From: Bacteroidales bacterium
Lineage (GTDB): Bacteria; Bacteroidota; Bacteroidia; Bacteroidales; UBA932
DNA: 54,324 nucleotides
Assembly: GCA_017482565.1 (NCBI GenBank)
Contig: JAFUMO010000005.1
Span: 1 to 54,324, forward strand
Direction: 5' to 3'
Of this stretch, positions 5,048 through 23,178 are shown piece after piece. Numbering within the stretch: the first letter of the stretch is position 1; the number at the start of each line of letters is the position of its first letter. A program made the position numbers and the translations under genes. The notes under the pieces are model-generated. The model had not been told where the DNA came from and searched no databases. It saw nothing but the letters and a program-made list of their open reading frames with translations.

Positions 5048-5484
5048 CACGCAGGCGGGCTGTCCTATCGCTCAAGAAATTGGGAGGAAAGTCCGGGCAG
5101 GGAAGGGCAGTGTACTGTGGAAAGCACAGATAGGCGATGAGTTTATGCAAGGGTAACAGAAAACTACCGCCGCAGGAGCGCCCAGTATTCTACTGGAGAG
5201 AATCTTCTGGGATTTTCTTTAATGCGTGAAGCAGGAAGCCGTTGGTTGACAGACTGCAATACTGCGGTAAGGGTGAAAATGTGGGGTAAGAGCCCACGGA
5301 TTATGATGGTGACATTATAGTGGTATCCTACTGCATCCTGCAAGGCCATGTATACCGGCAATCAAGGGTTGCCCGCCCGTTGCCGGGGGGTAGGCTGCGT
5401 CAGATAAATGATAGGAGCTTCTTAGGGTGTCCCCTCGGGGATGCCAGTCTGAGGTACAGGACCCGGCTTATAGGCCCGCCCAAA
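5048..5484 (+). ncRNA. rnpB: RNase P RNA, bacterial type A
   Basis: Catalytic RNA that removes 5' leaders from pre-tRNAs. The conserved core elements are all visible: GAGGAAAGTCCGGGC near 5081-5096 (CR I/P4 5' strand), GGTAAGAGCCCACGG near 5284-5298, and ACAGGACCCGGCTTATAGG near 5456-5474 (CR V/P4 3' strand). The ends pair to make helix P1: GGCGGGC at 5054-5060 with GCCCGCC at 5474-5480. Exact ends are approximate. An own -7 box precedes it and an intrinsic terminator follows. Open frames that cross this region are chance. Confidence 0.95.
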
Positions 5485-5490
5485 AATGAA

Positions 5491-6532: not shown

Positions 6533-6573
6533 CAACCGATAAGGGCGCAAGGCCCGTATTTTATTAACATTTT

Positions 6574-6644
6574 GCTTGGGGGTGCCATTCGGCTGAGATC
6601 ATACCCTTTAAACCTGATGCGGTTAGTACCGCCGTAGGGAAAGC
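6574..6644 (+). promoter_or_regulatory. TPP riboswitch (THI element) aptamer
   Basis: The conserved THI-box parts are in order: GGGGTGCC (6578-6585), CTGAGATCATACCC (6593-6606), ACCTGATGCGGTTAGTACCG (about 6612-6631) and CGTAGGGAA (6633-6641). GCTT at 6574-6577 pairs with AAGC at 6641-6644 as helix P1. The element binds thiamine pyrophosphate and is expected to switch off the downstream receptor and transporter genes when TPP is plentiful. Confidence 0.95.
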
Positions 6645-6660
6645 GTGGGAGACGTCCCAC
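6645..6660 (+). promoter_or_regulatory. Hairpin directly after the TPP aptamer
   Basis: GTGGGA-GACG-TCCCAC is a perfect 6-bp hairpin adjoining P1. It is not followed by a T-run, so it does not look like an intrinsic terminator. It may belong to the expression platform, with control perhaps at translation or by a factor-dependent mechanism. The rest of the leader to 6719 contains only a weak GTCT/AGAC stem. Confidence 0.45.
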
Positions 6661-14292: not shown

Positions 14293-14895
14293 TTATCTGT
14301 GCCTCAGTGCAAGTTCCTTCTCCAGGTCCTCAATTGTACATTCCATCTGCTCGAGGAGTACCAGCAGGTGGTAGATCATGTCAGAGGTCTCGTATATAAA
14401 GCGGCTGCGGTTTCCGTCAACAGCTTCAATGACACTTTCAGTTGCCTCTTCGCCCACCTTCTGGGCGATTTTTTTTACCCCCTTTATGAAGAGCTTTGTA
14501 GTGTAGGAGCCTTCCGGCATTTCATGGTGCCTCTGTTGTATAATCTGCTGCAGCCCTCTGATAAACCCTTCGTGTTCCGGTGTGTCAAAGCAGCTTGTTG
14601 TCCCCCTGTGGCATGTGGGGCCGCATGGCGTAGCCTTTATCAGTAGGGTATCCTTGTCACAATCTACATAAATATCCTTTACCGTGAGCCAGTTCCCGCT
14701 GGTCTCACCCTTGGTCCACAGACACTTCCTGCTGCGTGAATAGAATGTCACCTTCCCTTGTGTGATGGTCCTGTTGTACGCCTCTTCGTCCATATATCCA
14801 AGCATCAGTACCTTAAGGGTGGCGGCATCCTGTATTATTGCAGGCACAAGGCCGTCCTGCTGCCTTGAAAGGTCAAGTTCATTGAATGGTATCAT
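14293..14895 (-). CDS. hisIE: Bifunctional phosphoribosyl-AMP cyclohydrolase / phosphoribosyl-ATP pyrophosphatase
   Basis: A 200-residue fusion that carries out steps 2 and 3 of histidine synthesis. Residues about 1-105 are HisI (cyclohydrolase), with KVLMLGYMDEEAY, TFYSRSRKCLWTKGETSGN and the zinc-binding cysteines in VDCDKD and CGPTCHRG. Residues about 110-200 are HisE (pyrophosphatase), with the acidic metal-binding stretch KVGEEATESVIEA. HisI-HisE fusion is common in bacteria. It is the last gene of the his operon and overlaps hisF by 4 nt. Confidence 0.95.
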   Translation of the reverse strand: MIPFNELDLSRQQDGLVPAIIQDAATLKVLMLGYMDEEAYNRTITQGKVTFYSRSRKCLWTKGETSGNWLTVKDIYVDCDKDTLLIKATPCGPTCHRGTTSCFDTPEHEGFIRGLQQIIQQRHHEMPEGSYTTKLFIKGVKKIAQKVGEEATESVIEAVDGNRSRFIYETSDMIYHLLVLLEQMECTIEDLEKELALRHR

Positions 14896-15650
14896 AGCCT
14901 TACATTTATGTTCATTTCGTGCAATTGTCTTTTCAGTTCACCTATGGTAATCTCTCCGTAGTGGAATATGCTGGCTGCCAGCGCTGCATCTGCCTTGCCT
15001 CTTGTGAGGACATCTGCAATGTCCCTGGGACTTCCCGCCCCTCCAGATGCAATGATTGGGATGGAAACCTTTCCGGCAAGTTCTGCAAATGTGCCGCACG
15101 GATATCCGTTTCTGGTACCGTCGTGGTCCATTGAGGTGAAGAGGATTTCCCCTGCACCCCTTTCCTGGGCTTCAACTGCCCAGCTGAAAAGCTCTTTCTG
15201 TGTCATCCTGCTCCCTCCGTGGGTTGTTGCGTACCAGATTCCATCCTGGGAACGCTTTGCGTCAATGGCAACAACAATAAACTGGCTGCCGTACTTGCCG
15301 GCAATCTCATCTATAAGTGCCGGCCTGGCTATTGCCGAACTGTTTACTGATATCTTGTCAGCCCCTGCATCCAGAAGCCTTGCAGCATCATCAAGGGATG
15401 ATATGCCACCGCCAACGGTGAACGGTATATTTATCCTGTCAGATATCCTTTCCACAAGCTTTGTAAAAGTACCCCTACCTTCCCTTGTTGCGCTGATATC
15501 CAGATATACAAGTTCATCCGCACCTGAGCGGGCATATAGCTCACCCAGCTCCACGGCATCCCCCACATCCTGCAGCCCCTTGAAGTTAATTCCCTTTACA
15601 GTCCTTCCGTCCTTCACATCAAGGCACGGTATTATCCTCTTTGCAACCAT
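14892..15650 (-). CDS. hisF: Imidazole glycerol phosphate synthase, cyclase subunit HisF
   Basis: A 252-residue (beta/alpha)8-barrel enzyme. With HisH it makes imidazole glycerol phosphate and AICAR from PRFAR. The catalytic Asp11 (PCLDVKDGR) and Asp near 130 (VVAIDAKR) are present, as are the phosphate-binding segments VGGGIS and IASGGAG. It overlaps hisA by 19 nt at its start and hisIE by 4 nt at its end, indicating tight translational coupling. Confidence 0.96.
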   Translation of the reverse strand: MVAKRIIPCLDVKDGRTVKGINFKGLQDVGDAVELGELYARSGADELVYLDISATREGRGTFTKLVERISDRINIPFTVGGGISSLDDAARLLDAGADKISVNSSAIARPALIDEIAGKYGSQFIVVAIDAKRSQDGIWYATTHGGSRMTQKELFSWAVEAQERGAGEILFTSMDHDGTRNGYPCGTFAELAGKVSIPIIASGGAGSPRDIADVLTRGKADAALAASIFHYGEITIGELKRQLHEMNINVRL

Positions 15651-16360
15651 AATCTTATCTCTTCCAATGTGATTTTTCCTTCATAAATGGCCTTGCCTAC
15701 AATTGCCTTCCTTATCCCAAGGGCTTCGGCCTTAACTATATCCTCCATGCCTGCTATTCCTCCCGACAGTATCACATCCACCTCCCCATATTTCCCCTGC
15801 AGTCCTGTATAAAGGCTGAATGCGGGCCCCTGGAGCATCCCGTCCCTTGATATGTCTGTACATATCACCTCCTTCAGCCCTTTTGGGACAAATTTCTCCA
15901 TAAGGTCCTCCACCCCGAGTTCCATCTCCTGGAGCCAGCCGTTTACGGCAACCTTGCCGTTGCGGACATCAGCCCCCAGTATGAGCCTCTCCCCACCAAA
16001 CTCTTCAAGCCACATGGCAAAGAGCCCAGGTTCCTTGGCGGCTGTGCTTCCCACAATAACATGGCCGGCACCTGCATCCAGTACGCTGCGGAGTGCCTCA
16101 AGGCTCTTTATCCCGCCGCCCCACTCAATGTCAAGAGAGGTGCTGGAGGCAATTTCCTCCAATGTCTTCAGGTTTGCAGGGGAGGATGCCTTGGCCCCGT
16201 CCAGATCCACCACATGTATCCTCCTTATGCCACAATCTTCATAACGCTTTGCCATTTCCAGAGGGCTGGCATCGTATGTGCGGCAGTTGTTGTAGTCACC
16301 CTTTGAGAGCCTTACGCATCTGCCGCCTATTATATCTATAGCCGGAATTATCCCAATCAT
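15632..16360 (-). CDS. hisA: ProFAR isomerase HisA
   Basis: A 242-residue (beta/alpha)8-barrel isomerase that converts ProFAR to PRFAR. It begins MIGIIPAIDIIGGRCVRLSK with the catalytic Asp8, and has the second acid in TDISRDGMLQGP. Phosphate-binding motifs EWGGGIKS and LSGGIAGMED are clear. It overlaps hisH by 4 nt and hisF by 19 nt. Confidence 0.95.
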   Translation of the reverse strand: MIGIIPAIDIIGGRCVRLSKGDYNNCRTYDASPLEMAKRYEDCGIRRIHVVDLDGAKASSPANLKTLEEIASSTSLDIEWGGGIKSLEALRSVLDAGAGHVIVGSTAAKEPGLFAMWLEEFGGERLILGADVRNGKVAVNGWLQEMELGVEDLMEKFVPKGLKEVICTDISRDGMLQGPAFSLYTGLQGKYGEVDVILSGGIAGMEDIVKAEALGIRKAIVGKAIYEGKITLEEIRLWLQRG

Positions 16361-16941
16361 AGTTCAAGGAAGTTTTTGATTATCAATTCACCTGTATCAC
16401 CGCTCTTTTCCGGATGGAACTGGGTGCCGTAGAAGTTCTCGTACTTGAGCGCTGCAGAGAACATCCCGCCGTATGTGGTGGTGGCAATAGTGTCACAGCA
16501 AAGCTGGGGATAGTATGAGTGTACATAATATACATACTCCCCTGAGGGGATGCCCTTGAAGAGCTTTCCTTCCAGGTTGCTGATCCTGTTCCACCCCATA
16601 TGCGGAACCTTTAGCCCATCGGAAGGGGTGAACCTCATTACCTTGGAATCAAATATCCCAAGACACTCTGTATCTCCCTCCTGGCTGTGGCGGCACATTA
16701 CCTGCAGCCCCACGCATATTCCCAGTACGGGCTGGCGCAGTTCCCTTATCACATCGCACAGGCCGGCATTGCGGAGGTTCTCCATTGCCATTTCGGCATT
16801 TCCCACCCCAGGGAGGAGAACCTTGTCCGCCTTCATTATCTCACTTGGAGAAGAGGTTACAATATACTCCGTTCCAAGCCTCTGCAGGGCATTCTTCACA
16901 GAACGGAGGTTCCCCATCCGGTAATCTATTATTGCTATCAT
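16357..16941 (-). CDS. hisH: Imidazole glycerol phosphate synthase, glutamine amidotransferase subunit HisH
   Basis: A 194-residue class-I glutamine amidotransferase that feeds ammonia to HisF. The nucleophile is Cys76 in VLGICVGLQVM, and the His/Glu pair lies in GTQFHPEKSGDTG near the C-terminus. The oxyanion region LLPGVGNAEMAM is normal. It lies 22 nt after the hisCB stop and overlaps hisA by 4 nt. Confidence 0.95.
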   Translation of the reverse strand: MIAIIDYRMGNLRSVKNALQRLGTEYIVTSSPSEIMKADKVLLPGVGNAEMAMENLRNAGLCDVIRELRQPVLGICVGLQVMCRHSQEGDTECLGIFDSKVMRFTPSDGLKVPHMGWNRISNLEGKLFKGIPSGEYVYYVHSYYPQLCCDTIATTTYGGMFSAALKYENFYGTQFHPEKSGDTGELIIKNFLEL

Positions 16942-16963: not shown

Positions 16964-18613
16964 TTATAATGTTCCCTTGCTGCTCGGGAGATCATATTTG
17001 AAGACATCCCTCCTTACTGCACACTTCAATGCCCTGGCAAAAGCCTTGAACACCCCTTCTATCAGGTGATGGTTGTTTTCTCCTTTGGCTTCAATATGAA
17101 GGTTTGCCTTCATTGCAATGCACAGGCTCTTGAAGAAATGCCTGAACATCTCTGTAGGTACATCCCCAACCATTTCCCGGGTGAAAGGTACATCCCATAC
17201 AAAATCTGCCCTTCCCCCAAAATCCAGCAGCACCATGGCCCTGCACTCATCCATCGGGAGGACAAAACCATATCTTTCAATTCCTCTTTTGTTCCCAAGA
17301 GCCATCCAGACAGCTTCTCCAAGTGCAATGGCCACATCTTCCATTGTGTGGTGCTCATCCACTTCAAGGTCTCCCCTGCATCTTATATCCAGTGAAATGC
17401 CGCTGTGGTGCGGAATCTGCTGCAGCATATGGTCAAAGAACTTGAGCCCTGTATCCATGGAGGATTCCTTCCCTCCGTCCAGGTCTATCTCCACGGTGAT
17501 GTCCGTCTCTTTGGTCTTCCTTGATATCCTGGCACTTCTTCCTGCCGGACCGGCAGTTTCCAGGGTGCCGGCATCAGGAGTGCCGTACAGCTTCAAGGCC
17601 TCAAGAAGCCTTCCATTTTCCTGAGGCGTTCCTATTGATATCCTCAGGCATCCGGAGCATCCGGGCACACTGTTGCGGTTCCTTACAATTATCCCTTTCC
17701 CAATGAGATAGCTGTATACGGCGTCTGCATCATTTACCTTTACAAGGAGGAAGTTTGCATCACTTGGGAACACTTCTTCCACCATATCCATGCAGGCAAG
17801 TGCACCTGCCATCTTCTCCCTCTCCTCCTTTACCTGTGCAATTTCCGCATCTATTCCTTTCCTGAGCAGGGATAGGGCAATCCTCCTTGTGGCCACATTT
17901 ATGTTATAGGGGTATTTTACCATGGACATCAGCTCAATTATCCTCTGTTGGGCAAATGCCATTCCAATCCTGAGCCCTGCCATACCCCATGCCTTGGAGA
18001 GGGTCTGCAGCACTATGATATTGGGATATTCATTTATGAATGCAGAGGCACCGGGGCCCTCTGCAAAATCTATGTAGGCCTCGTCTATCACCACAATCCC
18101 GTTGAACTTCCCTGCAAGGGAGAGCATCTCCTCCATAGGGAAACTGTTCCCTGTAGGGTTGTTGGGAGAGCAGAGGAATATGGCTTTAGTATCCTTGTCA
18201 ACTGCATCCAGAATCCCGTTGTACGGGAGCCGGAATCCATCCCCAAGCATAATCTCCTTTACCTTAATGTCGTTTGTTGCAGCCGCCACCCTGTACATTC
18301 CATACGAAGGGGAGATTGTAATCACATTGTCTTTCCCCGGTGTGCAGAAGATGCGGAATATGAGGTCTATGGCCTCATCGCTTCCGTTCCCTATGAAAAT
18401 GTTTCCTGCCGGAATTCTCTTTATCCGGTGAAGTGCCTCCTTCAGTTCCTTCTGTGCAGGATCGGGGTATCTGTTGCATCCGTTGTCATAGGGGCTTTCG
18501 TTTGCATCAAGGAAGATGCCCGGAGTTCCTTTATATTCATCCCTCGCTGTAGAGTAGGGCGCAAGTGCCGCAATGTTGGGCCTAACCAGCCTTTCAAGGT
18601 CAAAACTCTCCAT
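16964..18613 (-). CDS. hisCB: HisC-HisB fusion: histidinol-phosphate aminotransferase + imidazoleglycerol-phosphate dehydratase
   Basis: One 549-codon frame joins two histidine enzymes. Residues about 1-344 are HisC, a PLP aminotransferase: [25 protein letters not shown], and the PLP lysine Lys207 in [14 protein letters not shown]. Residues 345-361 are a Gly/Ala/Thr-rich linker. Residues 362-549 are HisB dehydratase (IGPD): [30 protein letters not shown], the Mn-binding DEHHTMED (419-426) and ENNHH (512-516), ending in PSSKGTL. All catalytic features of both parts are intact, so it is a true fusion and not a decayed gene. The dehydratase lacks the N-terminal histidinol-phosphate phosphatase that HisB carries in many Bacteroidales and in E. 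coli, and no other phosphatase gene is in the operon. Gaps are 4 nt from hisD and 22 nt to hisH. Confidence 0.94.
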
Positions 18614-18617
18614 AACT

Positions 18618-19892
18618 TTACTGTAATCTTATTTTAACTGCATCTGCATGGGCCTGAAGGCCCTCAGCATCTGCCATTGCAATTATTGTTGGGGCGAGCT
18701 TCCCAATACCCTCCCTTGTAATCTCCTGAATTGTGATTTTCCTCATGAAGCTGTCCATGTTCACGCCGCTGCATGAGCTGGCCCAGCCTGAGGTGGGAAG
18801 CGTGTGGTTGGTGCCGGATGCGTAATCGCCCGCGCTTTCAGGGGACCAGTTTCCTATGAATATGCTCCCCGCTGCGGTAATCTTTCCTGCCGCCTCCCAA
18901 GGATCTTCCATGGAGATTATCAGGTGTTCTGCAGCATACATGTTGGCAAATTCCAGCATCTTTATCCTTGAATCCAGGACAATGATCCTGCTTTTGGCTA
19001 GTGATTTCATAATATATTCCCCTCTGGGTGCCAGGGCTGCCTGCCGTGCAACCTCCATCTCCACTTCCCTTGCAAGCTCCATGCTGCTGCAGACAGCCAT
19101 TGCCTGGCTGTCTGCGCCATGCTCGGCCTGAGAAAGGAGGTCGGCTGCCACAAACGGGGCACTTGCACTTGAATCTGCCAGCACCATCACCTCAGATGGT
19201 CCTGCAGGCATGTCAATGGCAGTGCTTTCTCCGCTTACCAGCTGTTTGGCGGCTGTCACATAGCGGTTTCCCGGTCCGAATATCTTATGGCACCTTGTAA
19301 CGGATTCAGTGCCGTATGCCATTGCTGCAATGGCCTGGGCCCCTCCAATCCTGTATACTTTCCCTACTCCGCACCTTTTTGCAGCATACAGCACTTCAGC
19401 GGCAATCCTCCCCTCCTTGTCTGCCGGGGTGCAGAGTACAATTTCCCTGCAGCCTGCAAGTTGGGCAGGGACAGCCAGCATCAGTACGGTTGAGAACAGC
19501 GGAGCTGTACCGCCGGGGATATATAGTCCCACCTTCTGTATTGCCACCGGCCTCTGTATGCACGTTACACCGGGGGCAGTCTCCACCCTTATCTCCTGAG
19601 GCGCCTGGGCCTTATGGAAGGCTGTGATGTTTGCTATGGCATTCTCAATGGCCGATTTCAGCACTTCACCAACCTTTCCGGCAGCCGATTCCAGTTCTTC
19701 CGGGGAAACTTCCAGCCTCTCAGGACAGAACCCGTCAATCTTCAATGCAAGCTCCCTTATGGCGGCATCCCCGCCGGCCTTTACCTTATCCAGTATCTCC
19801 CTTGCTGCTTCCAGTACGGAGCTGTCTCCAGCCTGTGCCCTTGAGCACAATCCTTCCCATTCACTCTCTTTAGGGTTGCAATATATCTTCAT
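18618..19892 (-). CDS. hisD: Histidinol dehydrogenase HisD
   Basis: A 424-residue zinc enzyme that oxidises L-histidinol to L-histidine with two NAD+ (last two steps). Family motifs present include [23 protein letters not shown] (split across about residues 126-148), [48 protein letters not shown] and [13 protein letters not shown], plus the C-terminal [12 protein letters not shown]. It starts 4 nt after the hisG stop. Confidence 0.96.
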
Positions 19893-19896
19893 GGCG

Positions 19897-20748
19897 CTAT
19901 AGTATTATCTTGTCTAGTGTAAGTACCAGTATCCCTTCGGCCCCAATGGCCTTGAGCTGCTTCACCTTGTTCCAGAGCTCGTCTGCCTCAACAACTGAAT
20001 GGAGTGAACACCATCCTTCGGCAGCCAGAGGCATCACTGTAGGGCTCCTCATTGCGGGAAGGATTGTAAGAGCCTCATCCAGGCTGTCCTTGGGTATGTT
20101 CATGAGGAGATATTTCTTCCTGCTGCTTACCCTTTCGGATTCTATCCTGAATAGGATTTCATCCAGCACCTCCCTTTCTTCGCTGCCAAGGTTCCTGTTG
20201 GCAATGAGCACTGCCTCAGATTCAAATACCCTCTCAACTTCCCTGAGGCCATTGGAAACCAATGTCCCTCCAGATGAAACAATATCAAATATGGCATCTG
20301 CAATGCCGGCTGCAGGGGCTATCTCAACAGAGCCGGTGATCACCTCTATCTTTGCATCAATGTTGTTCTCCTTGAGGAATTTGCCAAGAATTACAGGGTA
20401 GGAGGTGGCTATTGTCTTCCCGTTGAAGTACTCCACACCCTCATATTTATCCCCTTTGGGAACGGCAAGTGAGATGCGGCATCCGCCAAAGCCAAGCCTT
20501 GCCACAATCTCCACATCACATCCCCTCTCTTCCACTTCATTCAACCCTACAATCCCAAGCTGTGCCGTACCGGAAGATACAACCTGGGGAATATCGTCAT
20601 CCCTGAGGTAAAGTACCTCTGCCGGGAAATTTGCTGCCTTTGAGAGAAATTTCCTCTTTGCACTCTCCACATCAATGTCAATGCTTTTCATCAGTGCAAG
20701 GCTCTCTTCATTGAGCCTTCCTTTTGTCTGGATTGCTATCCTTATCAT
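19897..20748 (-). CDS. hisG: ATP phosphoribosyltransferase HisG, long form
   Basis: A 283-residue enzyme for the first committed step (ATP + PRPP). The PRPP-binding loop lies in the stretch GIADAIFDIVSSGGTLVSNGL (about residues 148-168, quoted in part). The chain extends about 70 residues beyond the catalytic core into the HisG_C regulatory domain, so this is the long, homohexameric form that is inhibited by histidine and needs no HisZ. It is the first structural gene of the operon, 24 nt after the T-run of the attenuator on the minus strand. Confidence 0.95.
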   Translation of the reverse strand: MIRIAIQTKGRLNEESLALMKSIDIDVESAKRKFLSKAANFPAEVLYLRDDDIPQVVSSGTAQLGIVGLNEVEERGCDVEIVARLGFGGCRISLAVPKGDKYEGVEYFNGKTIATSYPVILGKFLKENNIDAKIEVITGSVEIAPAAGIADAIFDIVSSGGTLVSNGLREVERVFESEAVLIANRNLGSEEREVLDEILFRIESERVSSRKKYLLMNIPKDSLDEALTILPAMRSPTVMPLAAEGWCSLHSVVEADELWNKVKQLKAIGAEGILVLTLDKIIL

Positions 20749-20772
20749 AATTGTTGCGTTTAATTGTCGGGG

Positions 20773-20806
20773 AAAAAGAAAAGGCCTGCCATTAACGGCA
20801 AGCCTT
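20773..20806 (-). terminator. His-operon attenuator (intrinsic terminator)
   Basis: On the minus strand AAGGCTTGCC pairs with GGCAGGCCTT across a 6-nt loop (10 bp, one G-U), followed by TTCTTTTTCC. It lies between the histidine leader peptide and hisG. The heptamer AGGCCTG at 20838-20844, right at the leader stop codon, can pair with the 3' arm exactly and with the 5' arm with one G-U, giving a possible antiterminator. Confidence 0.85.
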
Positions 20807-20842
20807 CAATTGCTATATGATGTTTCACTTAAATCCACAGGC

Positions 20843-20902
20843 CTACCGTATCTTCTGCAAGATATGATGATGGTGGTGGCGGATATTTGTGAAAAGTCTC
20901 AT
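20843..20902 (-). CDS. hisL: Histidine operon leader peptide
   Basis: A 19-residue frame on the minus strand: MRLFTNIRHHHHHILQKIR, with five consecutive His codons (CAC CAC CAT CAT CAT). It begins 20 nt after a -7 box, has a purine-rich AGAGAGAC before the ATG, and stops 36 nt before the terminator hairpin. This is the arrangement of a ribosome-mediated attenuator: ribosomes stalling on His codons when His-tRNA is scarce would favour the antiterminator and let the operon be transcribed. The role is inferred from design; the peptide itself needs no function. Confidence 0.9.
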   Translation of the reverse strand: MRLFTNIRHHHHHILQKIR

Positions 20903-20922
20903 GTGTCTCTCTTTATTTTCTG

Positions 20923-20930
20923 CAAATATA
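20923..20930 (-). promoter_or_regulatory. -7 box of the his operon
   Basis: Minus strand TATATTTG, an exact TAnnTTTG match, 20 nt before the leader-peptide ATG. It lies back to back with the corA promoter. Confidence 0.6.
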
Positions 20931-20947
20931 TACATTTACAGCATACG

Positions 20948-20980
20948 TTGTACCAGAAAGTCATTTTTTTTGTACATTTG
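20948..20980 (+). promoter_or_regulatory. Promoter of corA
   Basis: TTG at 20948-20950, a 22-nt spacer, and TACATTTG at 20973-20980. The leader to the ATG at 21006 is about 20 nt. Confidence 0.55.
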
Positions 20981-21005
20981 CGGAGATATCCAATTTCTTG
21001 GGGTT

Positions 21006-21953
21006 ATGATAGAGATTTTCTACAAGTCAAAGGGACAGATTGTGACATCATCAGATATAGCCTACCTGGATGAGCTGGGCTTTGATGATGTACTCTGGAT
21101 AGACCTCTTTGAGCCTACAGGTGATGAGAAGAGGGGTGTGGAAAATTTCCTTGAGACAACCTTGCAGAGCCGGGCCCAGGCAGAGGAGATTGAGAGTTCA
21201 TCCCGCTATTCGGAAACAGATACAACAATCTTTGCAAACACCAACTTCCTTATTCCCGGTCCCGACGAATACAGCATGGAGGCAGTATCCTTCATCATAT
21301 CAGAAGGTATACTTGTTACGATAAGGCAGGTTCCCCTCCGTACATTCACAGACATGCAGAGGAGGATATCGGTTTCCTATAAGCTCTATCCTACAGGATA
21401 CCATATTCTTGTGGCTATCCTTGAGAGCAGGATTGACCTTGATGCCGATATGATTGAGCTCATGGCAAAAGAGATTGCCCAGTTCAGCAAGAGCGTGAGT
21501 GCAGGTGAGTCTGTAAGTGAAGATTTTCTTCTGGATATCAACCAGCTGCAGGAGAATACAATGATGGTAAGGGAGAACATCATAGACAAGCAGCGCATGA
21601 TTTCAGCAATACTGAAGAGTGACAAGTTCCCAAGGGATGTGCATGCCAAGCTGAATGTGCTGATAAAGGATATAGGTTCCCTGCTCAACCATACAAACTT
21701 CAATTTTGAGAGGCTTGAGTACCTGCAGAATACTGTTCTTGGTCTTATCAATCTGGATCAGAACAAGATTATGAAGGTGCTTACATTTGTCTCACTCCTG
21801 TTCATGCCGCCTACGCTTATTTCAGGTATTTTTGGAATGAATATAGGGCTTCCGGTCTTTGGCAGCAGGTGGGATTTCCTCTTTGTTGTTGGGATAATGC
21901 TCCTTTCTGTGATAATAGCCTCAATGGTATTCAGGAAGAGGAAGATGTTCTAA
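21006..21953 (+). CDS. corA: CorA-family magnesium/cobalt transporter
   Basis: A 315-residue inner-membrane divalent-cation channel. A large acidic and helical cytoplasmic part (residues 1-255) precedes two C-terminal transmembrane helices. The family selectivity motif GMN is at residues 277-279 (SGIFGMNIGLP), just after the first helix, and the tail is basic (FRKRKMF). I chose the ATG at 21006 because it follows the promoter; the longer frame upstream would overlap the promoter region. The stop overlaps that of the convergent perM by 4 nt. Confidence 0.92.
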   Translation: MIEIFYKSKGQIVTSSDIAYLDELGFDDVLWIDLFEPTGDEKRGVENFLETTLQSRAQAEEIESSSRYSETDTTIFANTNFLIPGPDEYSMEAVSFIISEGILVTIRQVPLRTFTDMQRRISVSYKLYPTGYHILVAILESRIDLDADMIELMAKEIAQFSKSVSAGESVSEDFLLDINQLQENTMMVRENIIDKQRMISAILKSDKFPRDVHAKLNVLIKDIGSLLNHTNFNFERLEYLQNTVLGLINLDQNKIMKVLTFVSLLFMPPTLISGIFGMNIGLPVFGSRWDFLFVVGIMLLSVIIASMVFRKRKMF

Positions 21954-23077
21954 TCTTCCCCTTCGGTAATCTCCATCCTGTCCGTCAGTTTCTGTACAAG
22001 CCTGAACTGCGAAAAGAATTCCCGCGCAAATACCCTTATTACCGTATATGCAGGGATTGCTATGAGCATACCTATGATGCCCCCAACATTTCCGGCAATG
22101 AGGATGACAAGGAAAATCTCAAGCGGGTGGGCCTTCACGCTGTTTGAGTAGATATATGGCTGGAATATGAACACATCTATGAGGTGTGTTGCCACGAATA
22201 TTGCGGCAAGGGTGATTACCATTGTCCCAAAGACTATATCCGTGCCTGTGCTGTAGAGGGAAATTACGCCCATCAGTGTGCCGAATATGCCTGCCACAAG
22301 CGGTCCTATATAAGGTATCACATTCAATACCCCTGAGAGGAAGGCCAGTACAACCGCCATCTGGAAATTGACTCCCCCAATGAGGTTCAGCCCTATTGTA
22401 TTCAGTACAGCTATGCAGAGGATCTCAACGCTGATTCCGGTAAAGTATCTTATCAGGAGGCTGTTCACGCTCTCAATGGCCCTGCGGGTATTCATTTCGT
22501 ACTTTTCCGGAACAAACAGGAGCACCATTTCCGTAAAGGTGTTGTTGTCCTTGAGGAAGAAGAATGTCACGAACACAATTGTGAATGCGGAAACAAAGGA
22601 GTGTACTAAGAATGAAGTTACGGAGCTGAAGGCTCCTGTGAAGAGGTCAAAGCTGAAGATAGACCTCACCTGGTCCATAAGCATTGTTTCAATGGTGATG
22701 TCCTTGTCCATGGTGGGGAACATCTCATGCATCTTTACATTGTACATGTAGAGCGGGGAGGCCAGCTTCCTGTTTATCTCGTCAAGGTTTATGGTGCTCA
22801 TCTCTGTCACAATCCTCCCTATAAGGGGTATTATGAACATTATAAGCCCTGTAACTATTGCTCCAAGGATTATCAGTGTTATAAGTGAGGCAATTGCAGG
22901 TGATATCTTTAATTTTCCTATCCTGAGGGATGTGAGCAGACCCATTGCAGGCTTGCCTATAAGGGCAAGTACGGCAGATATGAGTATGCATGTGAGGATA
23001 TCGCTGAAATACCATGCAAGGAAAAGTATGCCGGCTGTAACGGTACCTATTATTATATATCTTGAAAGCTTGTTCAT
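21950..23077 (-). CDS. AI-2E/PerM family membrane protein
   Basis: A 375-residue polytopic inner-membrane protein of the AI-2E transporter (PerM/YdiK) family. The N-terminal pair of helices, a long central amphipathic region (about residues 120-200), and the C-terminal multi-helix block with GVLNVIPYIGPLVAGIFG and GNVGGIIGMLIAIPAYTVIR are typical. Members have been linked to autoinducer-2 export or Na+/H+ antiport; the substrate here is unknown. The start at 23077 is taken because the -7 box at 23107-23114 lies between it and the upstream in-frame ATG at 23131. Confidence 0.85.
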   Translation of the reverse strand: MNKLSRYIIIGTVTAGILFLAWYFSDILTCILISAVLALIGKPAMGLLTSLRIGKLKISPAIASLITLIILGAIVTGLIMFIIPLIGRIVTEMSTINLDEINRKLASPLYMYNVKMHEMFPTMDKDITIETMLMDQVRSIFSFDLFTGAFSSVTSFLVHSFVSAFTIVFVTFFFLKDNNTFTEMVLLFVPEKYEMNTRRAIESVNSLLIRYFTGISVEILCIAVLNTIGLNLIGGVNFQMAVVLAFLSGVLNVIPYIGPLVAGIFGTLMGVISLYSTGTDIVFGTMVITLAAIFVATHLIDVFIFQPYIYSNSVKAHPLEIFLVILIAGNVGGIIGMLIAIPAYTVIRVFAREFFSQFRLVQKLTDRMEITEGED

Positions 23078-23106
23078 ATACCTTGGTTCTTCCCGTTTAT
23101 TGAAAC

Positions 23107-23114
23107 CAAATATA
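23107..23114 (-). promoter_or_regulatory. -7 box of the PerM-family gene
   Basis: Minus strand TATATTTG, exact TAnnTTTG, 29 nt upstream of the chosen ATG. No clear -33. Confidence 0.5.
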
Positions 23115-23178
23115 CGAATTTGTGTTCTCATAGAGTTGAAAATTCTCTCTTTTTTTTGTGGAACTTTTCAGGGGACCC

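Follow-up and report, generated by a model that had tools for sequence, protein, structure and literature searches.

The window, that is, the whole stretch of 54,324 nucleotides that was analysed, carries on its minus strand a his operon whose genes follow a short leader in the order hisG-hisD-hisCB-hisH-hisA-hisF-hisIE (Table 1). The transaminase and the dehydratase are joined in a hisC-hisB fusion, a single protein of 549 aa in which Pfam recognised PF00155 and PF00475 only and no phosphatase domain was found. A HisJ-type match is present elsewhere in the same genome (G000:C6:19501-20241, 120.3 bits, cut-off 90.2). Within the window's genus, a hisG match was obtained in 13 of the 37 genomes (g1, G000-G036, the window's own included), many of whose assemblies are incomplete; histidine auxotrophy may therefore be common there. 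The same window also contains an RNase P RNA of class A (5052-5486, plus strand) and a TPP riboswitch (6568-6657, plus strand).

Table 1. Elements of the his leader and genes of the his operon in the window, in the direction of transcription
Feature	Position	Strand	Basis
-7 promoter element TATATTTG	20923..20930	-	Sequence; fits the Bacteroidota consensus TAnnTTTG
Leader peptide ORF, ATG to TAG, 19 codons plus TAG, MRLFTNIRHHHHHILQKIR	20843..20902	-	Sequence; His-rich frame conserved at hisG
Five His codons CAC CAC CAT CAT CAT, sensor	20864..20878	-	Sequence
Small hairpin UAUCUUGCAGAAGAUA, at the end of the His codons	20849..20864	-	Fold and sequence
Antiterminator strand ACGGTAGGCCT, over the stop codon	20839..20849	-	Pairs with the terminator 5′ arm, -19.4 kcal/mol
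Intrinsic terminator hairpin, 11 bp, 6-nt loop, -18.1 kcal/mol	20780..20807	-	Sequence prediction
Terminator U-rich tract TTTTCTTTTT	20773..20782	-	Sequence
hisG, ATP phosphoribosyltransferase	19897..20748	-	TIGR00070, 184.7 bits, cut-off 75.75
hisD, histidinol dehydrogenase	18618..19892	-	TIGR00069, 507.7 bits, cut-off 243.8
hisC-hisB fusion, transaminase and imidazoleglycerol-phosphate dehydratase	16964..18613	-	TIGR01141, residues 11-341, 325.9 bits
hisH	16357..16941	-	TIGR01855, 216.4 bits, cut-off 105.4
hisA	15632..16360	-	TIGR00007, 246.6 bits, cut-off 228.95
hisF	14892..15650	-	TIGR00735, 320.2 bits, cut-off 294.55
hisIE	14293..14895	-	PF01502 and PF01503, both over cut-offs

The elements that an earlier sequence-only reading had placed upstream of hisG all lie on the his strand between 20930 and 20773, and both the promoter box and the 19-codon frame with five consecutive histidines are as it had described them. 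The terminator with its T-run is also present, with a stem of 11 pairs and a 6-nt loop instead of the 10 bp first given, and the hairpin runs into the tail TCTTTTTCCCC. An AGGCCTG segment at the stop codon had been read as able to pair with either terminator arm. This is correct, but the competing strand is longer than noted (11 nt): TACGGTAGGCCTG forms 11 consecutive pairs with AAGGCTTGCCGTT, the terminator 5′ arm, at -19.4 kcal/mol. Pairing with the 3′ arm is also possible because AGGCCT is self-complementary; the one that the switch needs is that with the 5′ arm. The small hairpin at the end of the His codons is a possible pause or protector element. Folding of the region 20895-20771 gave a z-score of -4.55 relative to dinucleotide shuffles, and hisG starts 31 nt past the terminator hairpin. 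No clear -33 element was seen by eye upstream of the -7 box. On the opposite strand, a further terminator-like hairpin lies inside the start of hisG (20698-20719, plus strand) and may be due to chance; two terminator-like sites were found, against 0.7 expected in shuffles. The window's own 2.1-Mb genome, in an assembly approximately 89% complete, contains 24 matches to four tandem His codons, and an ATG-started short frame combined with a hairpin of -8 kcal/mol or below before a T-rich tail occurs at two of the 24, the overlapping pair at this locus. No second His-leader site was thus found among those matches.

Conservation of the leader was analysed in a sample of 240 hisG loci, one per genome. 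The sample combined 28 of the 31 rows of a first match set (the incomplete G057 match and second fragments from G046 and G052 were dropped), the full-length rows of a second set that had not yet been included (two G453 fragments and second weak matches in G373 and G476 were dropped) and the best-scoring 150 rows of a third, for which hisG was found in 252 of the 296 genomes searched. Because only best-scoring rows were taken from the third set, weaker-scoring families are under-sampled, above all f42, for which four loci were used and none had a His leader. Under the strict rule, a leader was a frame of 8-60 codons in which some stretch of eight codons held four or more His, located at most 350 nt upstream of hisG; the relaxed rule also allowed HHH. 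The earlier reading had made the conservation of the His codons in relatives its own refuting test, and they proved to be conserved: a leader together with a terminator is present in 14 of the 14 loci assigned to the window's family by genome search, and a strict His-rich frame in 185 of the 240 loci across the phylum. The latter divide into 69 of 93 loci within the order, 56 of 64 in other orders of the class and 60 of 83 in other classes of the phylum. The same rule recovered a frame in 2 of 1200 dinucleotide shuffles and at 1 of 240 loci on the antisense strand, and when the test was repeated for other residues the best of them, Ser, reached 50/240. With the relaxed rule the count rose to 193/240, against 1/240 in both the mononucleotide shuffles and the antisense strand. 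The loci missed were therefore 55 by the strict rule and 47 by the relaxed one, and His leaders occurred in 61 and 62 of the 85 families, respectively. Shuffles, antisense strand and conservation together rule out a chance frame.

A collection of named relatives was inspected in the same way. From the best 80 of 585 relatives, one of which had no upstream DNA, 79 loci remained, and a leader was present by the relaxed rule in 43 and absent in 36. The positive loci include Phocaeicola coprophilus, Bacteroides propionicigenes, B. gallinarum and Paraprevotella xylaniphila; 17 of the 36 leader-less ones are titled Prevotella or Prevotellaceae (L295, L312, L315, L317, L320-L322, L331, L336, L340, L341, L343, L347, L348, L351, L353 and L355, all with hisG and no His leader by the rule used). 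Two loci, L280 and L281, are leader-less though their HisG is 69-70% identical to that of the window. The leader is therefore widespread but patchy, with losses or gains inside Bacteroidales. Outside the His codons, the leader peptides vary widely in residues, length and His pattern. The endings QAR, QAS and QAK recur in family f30 and in a Chryseobacterium-titled record (e.g. L183, L230, L237, L242 and L344), and they look like a by-product of an antiterminator strand of the CUCAGGCGAG type lying over the last codons.

An intrinsic terminator, defined as a hairpin of -5 kcal/mol or below before a T-rich tail, was detected at 154 of the 193 leader loci. The 39 loci lacking one by this rule belong to f48 (26), f27 (7), f34 (3) and f17, f67 and f75 (one each). 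For the 154 loci, the nascent RNA was folded up to the terminator loop from the assumed front edge of the ribosome, 12 nt from the A-site codon, with the ribosome either stalled at the second His codon or positioned at the stop codon. The two pairings of the terminator 5′ arm turned out to be mutually exclusive in a manner that depends on ribosome position. Its mean upstream pairing was 0.71 in the stalled state and 0.22 at the stop codon, compared with 0.45 and 0.33 when the spacers were shuffled (p 9e-23 for the difference). Upstream pairing fell by more than 0.4 from stall to stop at 110/154 loci and rose by that much at none, and a stricter switch rule (at least 0.5 stalled, below 0.2 at stop) retained 78/154. 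In the window, the values were 0.85 stalled and 0.26 at stop, and in its family a fall of more than 0.4 occurred at 11 of 14 loci.

The position of the competitor strand relative to the His codons and the stop codon fits a switch. Its start lies a median of 29 nt past the first His codon; the strand is clear of a ribosome stalled at the His codons at 153/154 loci, and its midpoint is beneath a ribosome at the stop codon at 142/154. Within the window's family the competitor's place relative to the stop codon varies between 34 nt on the upstream side and 15 nt on the downstream side, yet it always follows the His codons, as a switch based on stalling at His would demand. Competitor and terminator arm also co-vary: the duplex of an arm with its own competitor has -13.4 kcal/mol, against -9.4 with the corresponding regions of other families (p 4e-23; p 3e-9 when counted by 58 families). 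The own competitor was better than all 30 sampled foreign ones at only 36/154 loci, and much of the co-variation is therefore a shift of averages. When no ribosome was placed on the window's leader, the terminator arm was still 0.77 paired upstream in the equilibrium fold, which ignores kinetics, and the protector (1:2) hairpin for this reason appears weak in the window, whose leader is predicted to be mostly antiterminated when untranslated. The protected state without a ribosome was obtained at 59 of 109 loci. Judging from these equilibrium folds, the default with an untranslated leader may differ between species.

The promoter adds a further conserved part. A TAnnTTTG box occurs at most 120 nt before the first His codon at 138 of the 193 leader loci, compared with 10/193 in shuffled sequences. 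A loose TTG near -33, present in 93/122, is a count without control and was set aside. In Flavobacterium johnsoniae, the -7 box lies 4-5 nt from the start site (PMC6847099, also the source of the consensus). This spacing predicts an RNA start in the window at about 20918-20917 and hence a 5′ UTR of 15-16 nt. Over 117 loci outside f48, the median predicted 5′ UTR is 15.5 nt when counted to the most upstream start and 16.5 nt when counted to the start nearest the His codons. Published overall medians are 32 nt in B. thetaiotaomicron, where 23 nt is the commonest length (PMC7366714), and 24 nt in F. psychrophilum (PMC9723704); for F. johnsoniae the mean is given as 33 nt (PMC6847099). By its predicted 5′ UTR, the leader AUG is thus nearer to the RNA 5′ end than is typical and would therefore emerge early. 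How ribosomes load fast enough on such a leader had been raised as a question when the locus was first read, and the question is a fair one: SD-like 4-mers precede only 2 of 122 leader ATGs, compared with 22 of 221 hisG starts. The absence of Shine-Dalgarno sequences is, however, described as the normal state of the phylum (PMC6847099). An extra-open start region was considered as an answer and rejected, since the region is slightly less open than in shuffles (unpaired 0.63 vs 0.69, 86 loci).

Taken as a whole, the evidence makes it very probable that the his operon is controlled by a transcription attenuator that responds specifically to histidine and works through the ribosome. In the proposed mechanism, RNA polymerase would start at about 20918 and a ribosome would load on the 15-16-nt 5′ UTR without the help of a Shine-Dalgarno sequence. 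When His-tRNA is scarce, the ribosome would stall on the five His codons with its front edge short of ACGGUAGGCCU, which, left free, would pair with the 5′ arm of the terminator that follows and allow the polymerase to read into hisG. When His-tRNA is plentiful, the ribosome would reach the stop codon and cover ACGGUAGGCCU, so that the terminator folds and the transcript stops at a length of about 140 nt. The computed results comprise the parts and how they are conserved, as well as the exclusive pairings with their co-variation and their geometry relative to the His codons and the stop; we infer that the leader is translated, that transcription begins at the predicted site, that it terminates in the leader and that histidine is the signal. 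The earlier proposal that ribosome-mediated control as in enterobacterial his operons acts here finds support in the conservation and in the predicted stall and stop geometry.

One family from another class of the phylum, f48, departs from this arrangement. A His leader is present at 31 of its 32 loci (examples are L041, L048, L217 and L249), and 26 of the 31 leaders have no intrinsic terminator by the rule. Start placement was analysed at the 20 loci with a strict -7 box, which the other 11 lack. At 19 of these 20 the most upstream in-frame start lies 4 (GTG) or 5 (ATG) nt past the box and so coincides with the predicted first RNA base; with the start nearest the His codons this holds at 18 of 20. 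Counted from the first dense His codon, f48 leaders have a median of 10 His, the last of them one codon before the end, compared with 5 His and 6 codons elsewhere. The 60 nt that follow the stop codon contain on average 15.3 C and 3.8 G in f48, and 8.3-13.3 C and 8.0-14.1 G in the other tabulated groups. RNAalifold found no consensus structure on a MAFFT alignment of the 31 leaders, which was much gapped (energy 0). In many f48 loci a small hairpin of the GTGC..stop..GCAC type spans the stop codon, an observation made without control; in some members such a weak hairpin before T-rich sequence could itself be a terminator. The f48 arrangement may thus resemble that of TnaC, with control through Rho, on an mRNA that would be leaderless.

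Four other explanations of the leader were weighed against attenuation of transcription by a ribosome stalled for lack of His-tRNA. The features of f48 just described, the mostly missing terminator and the C-rich, G-poor stretch after the stop codon, speak for a leader that acts at translation or via Rho, where a His-dependent change of fold would hide the hisG start or a Rho site. For the window this is improbable, given a hairpin with a T-rich tail here and at 154 of the 193 leader loci, and a hisG start that lies 31 nt beyond that hairpin. Lower still is the probability that the nascent peptide, and not a shortage of His-tRNA, stalls the ribosome. The leader frame does run through the His-rich stretch and arrest peptides also control terminators, but such peptides usually keep specific residues, and those encoded here are, as described above, highly variable apart from the His codons.

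It is hardly credible that the hairpin is an ordinary terminator, serving for instance to end read-through from the minus-strand gene at 21950-23131, and that the His frame beside it arose by chance. That gene is indeed upstream, beyond a corA-like gene, but the latter intervenes on the other strand (177.6 bits, below the NCBIfam cut-off of 200.75), and by the relaxed rule 62 of 85 families have a His leader at hisG, with which the -7 box and the competitor strand recur. Equally slight is the chance that hisG is preceded by a T-box or by a different riboswitch that binds a tRNA or a ligand. T-boxes do control his genes in Firmicutes (PMC9413887), but the leader has no Rfam match at the gathering cut-off, none of the eight weak Rfam matches up to E 10 in 20700-21010 is a T-box, and no more than about 110 nt of transcript precede the terminator, over half of them taken up by the leader ORF. 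The attenuator driven by ribosome stalling at His codons is accordingly the reading retained.

As a mechanism, attenuation of this kind is that of the enterobacterial his operons, and the likeness claimed by the sequence-only reading holds at this level. The window shares with enterobacterial hisL (RF00514, His_leader) a short frame with tandem His codons, exclusive antiterminator and terminator structures and a site before hisG, and differs from it in the absence of a Shine-Dalgarno sequence and in its apparently weak protector hairpin. The E. coli his leader has seven tandem His codons, the window five. The likeness does not extend to family membership: RF00514 matches with its whole model and in place, yet at 18.3 bits (E 0.83) against a cut-off of 49, and the window is therefore not filed in that family. 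Besides being general knowledge, the enterobacterial mechanism is described in PMC9413887, which also reports His leaders in the Bacillus cereus group, Eubacteriales and Erysipelotrichales. These resemble the present ones in their three to five consecutive His codons and their terminator and antiterminator; unlike them, they belong to another phylum and were reported in 17 species of three lineages, whereas the leaders described here are widespread. Within Bacteroidota, a 2021 study of F. psychrophilum reported strong indications of attenuation by leader peptides ahead of amino-acid operons and described a structured 5′ element of hisG, without Rfam match, that is also present in other genera of Flavobacteriaceae (PMC9723704). 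This element, compared here by its published description only, shares the phylum and the gene with the window's leader and differs in that its reported conservation is within Flavobacteriaceae only. Short ORFs reminiscent of leader peptides were noted in B. thetaiotaomicron, in a text whose available part does not contain the word histidine (PMC7366714). The available part of PMC4833913 mentions Bacteroidetes only in leader-to-structural-gene distances, that of PMC9413887 has no occurrence of Bacteroid*, and that of PMC2965389 none of Bacteroid*, Flavobacter* or CFB. In the open-licence literature, represented mostly by titles and the beginnings of abstracts, no his attenuator was found that is described as phylum-wide or as belonging to gut Bacteroidales. 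The kind of attenuation is thus known and, as far as this literature extends, what is new is its breadth, the quantitative test of the switch, the start geometry free of Shine-Dalgarno sequences and the lead offered by f48.

A tentative general picture, put forward here as a possibility with the odds still against it, is that his attenuation is widespread and perhaps ancestral in Bacteroidota and was adapted to ribosomes that do not use Shine-Dalgarno sequences by placing the leader AUG very near the RNA 5′ end. In the same picture, f48 would have a different machine: the start codon would be the first triplet transcribed, and about ten His codons reach to the stop, beyond which the sequence is rich in C and poor in G and mostly lacks an intrinsic terminator. 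Such features would point to attenuation through Rho, with the Rho site covered by a ribosome that has stalled on the final His codons, in the way known from TnaC and tryptophan. Attenuation needs the ribosome to load and to keep pace with the polymerase within about a hundred nucleotides, and the same switch across a phylum devoid of Shine-Dalgarno sequences would provide many natural examples in which the speed of ribosome loading and the coupling of transcription and translation can be measured. In some gut Bacteroidales, among them species of Bacteroides and Phocaeicola, the leader also probably regulates histidine synthesis.
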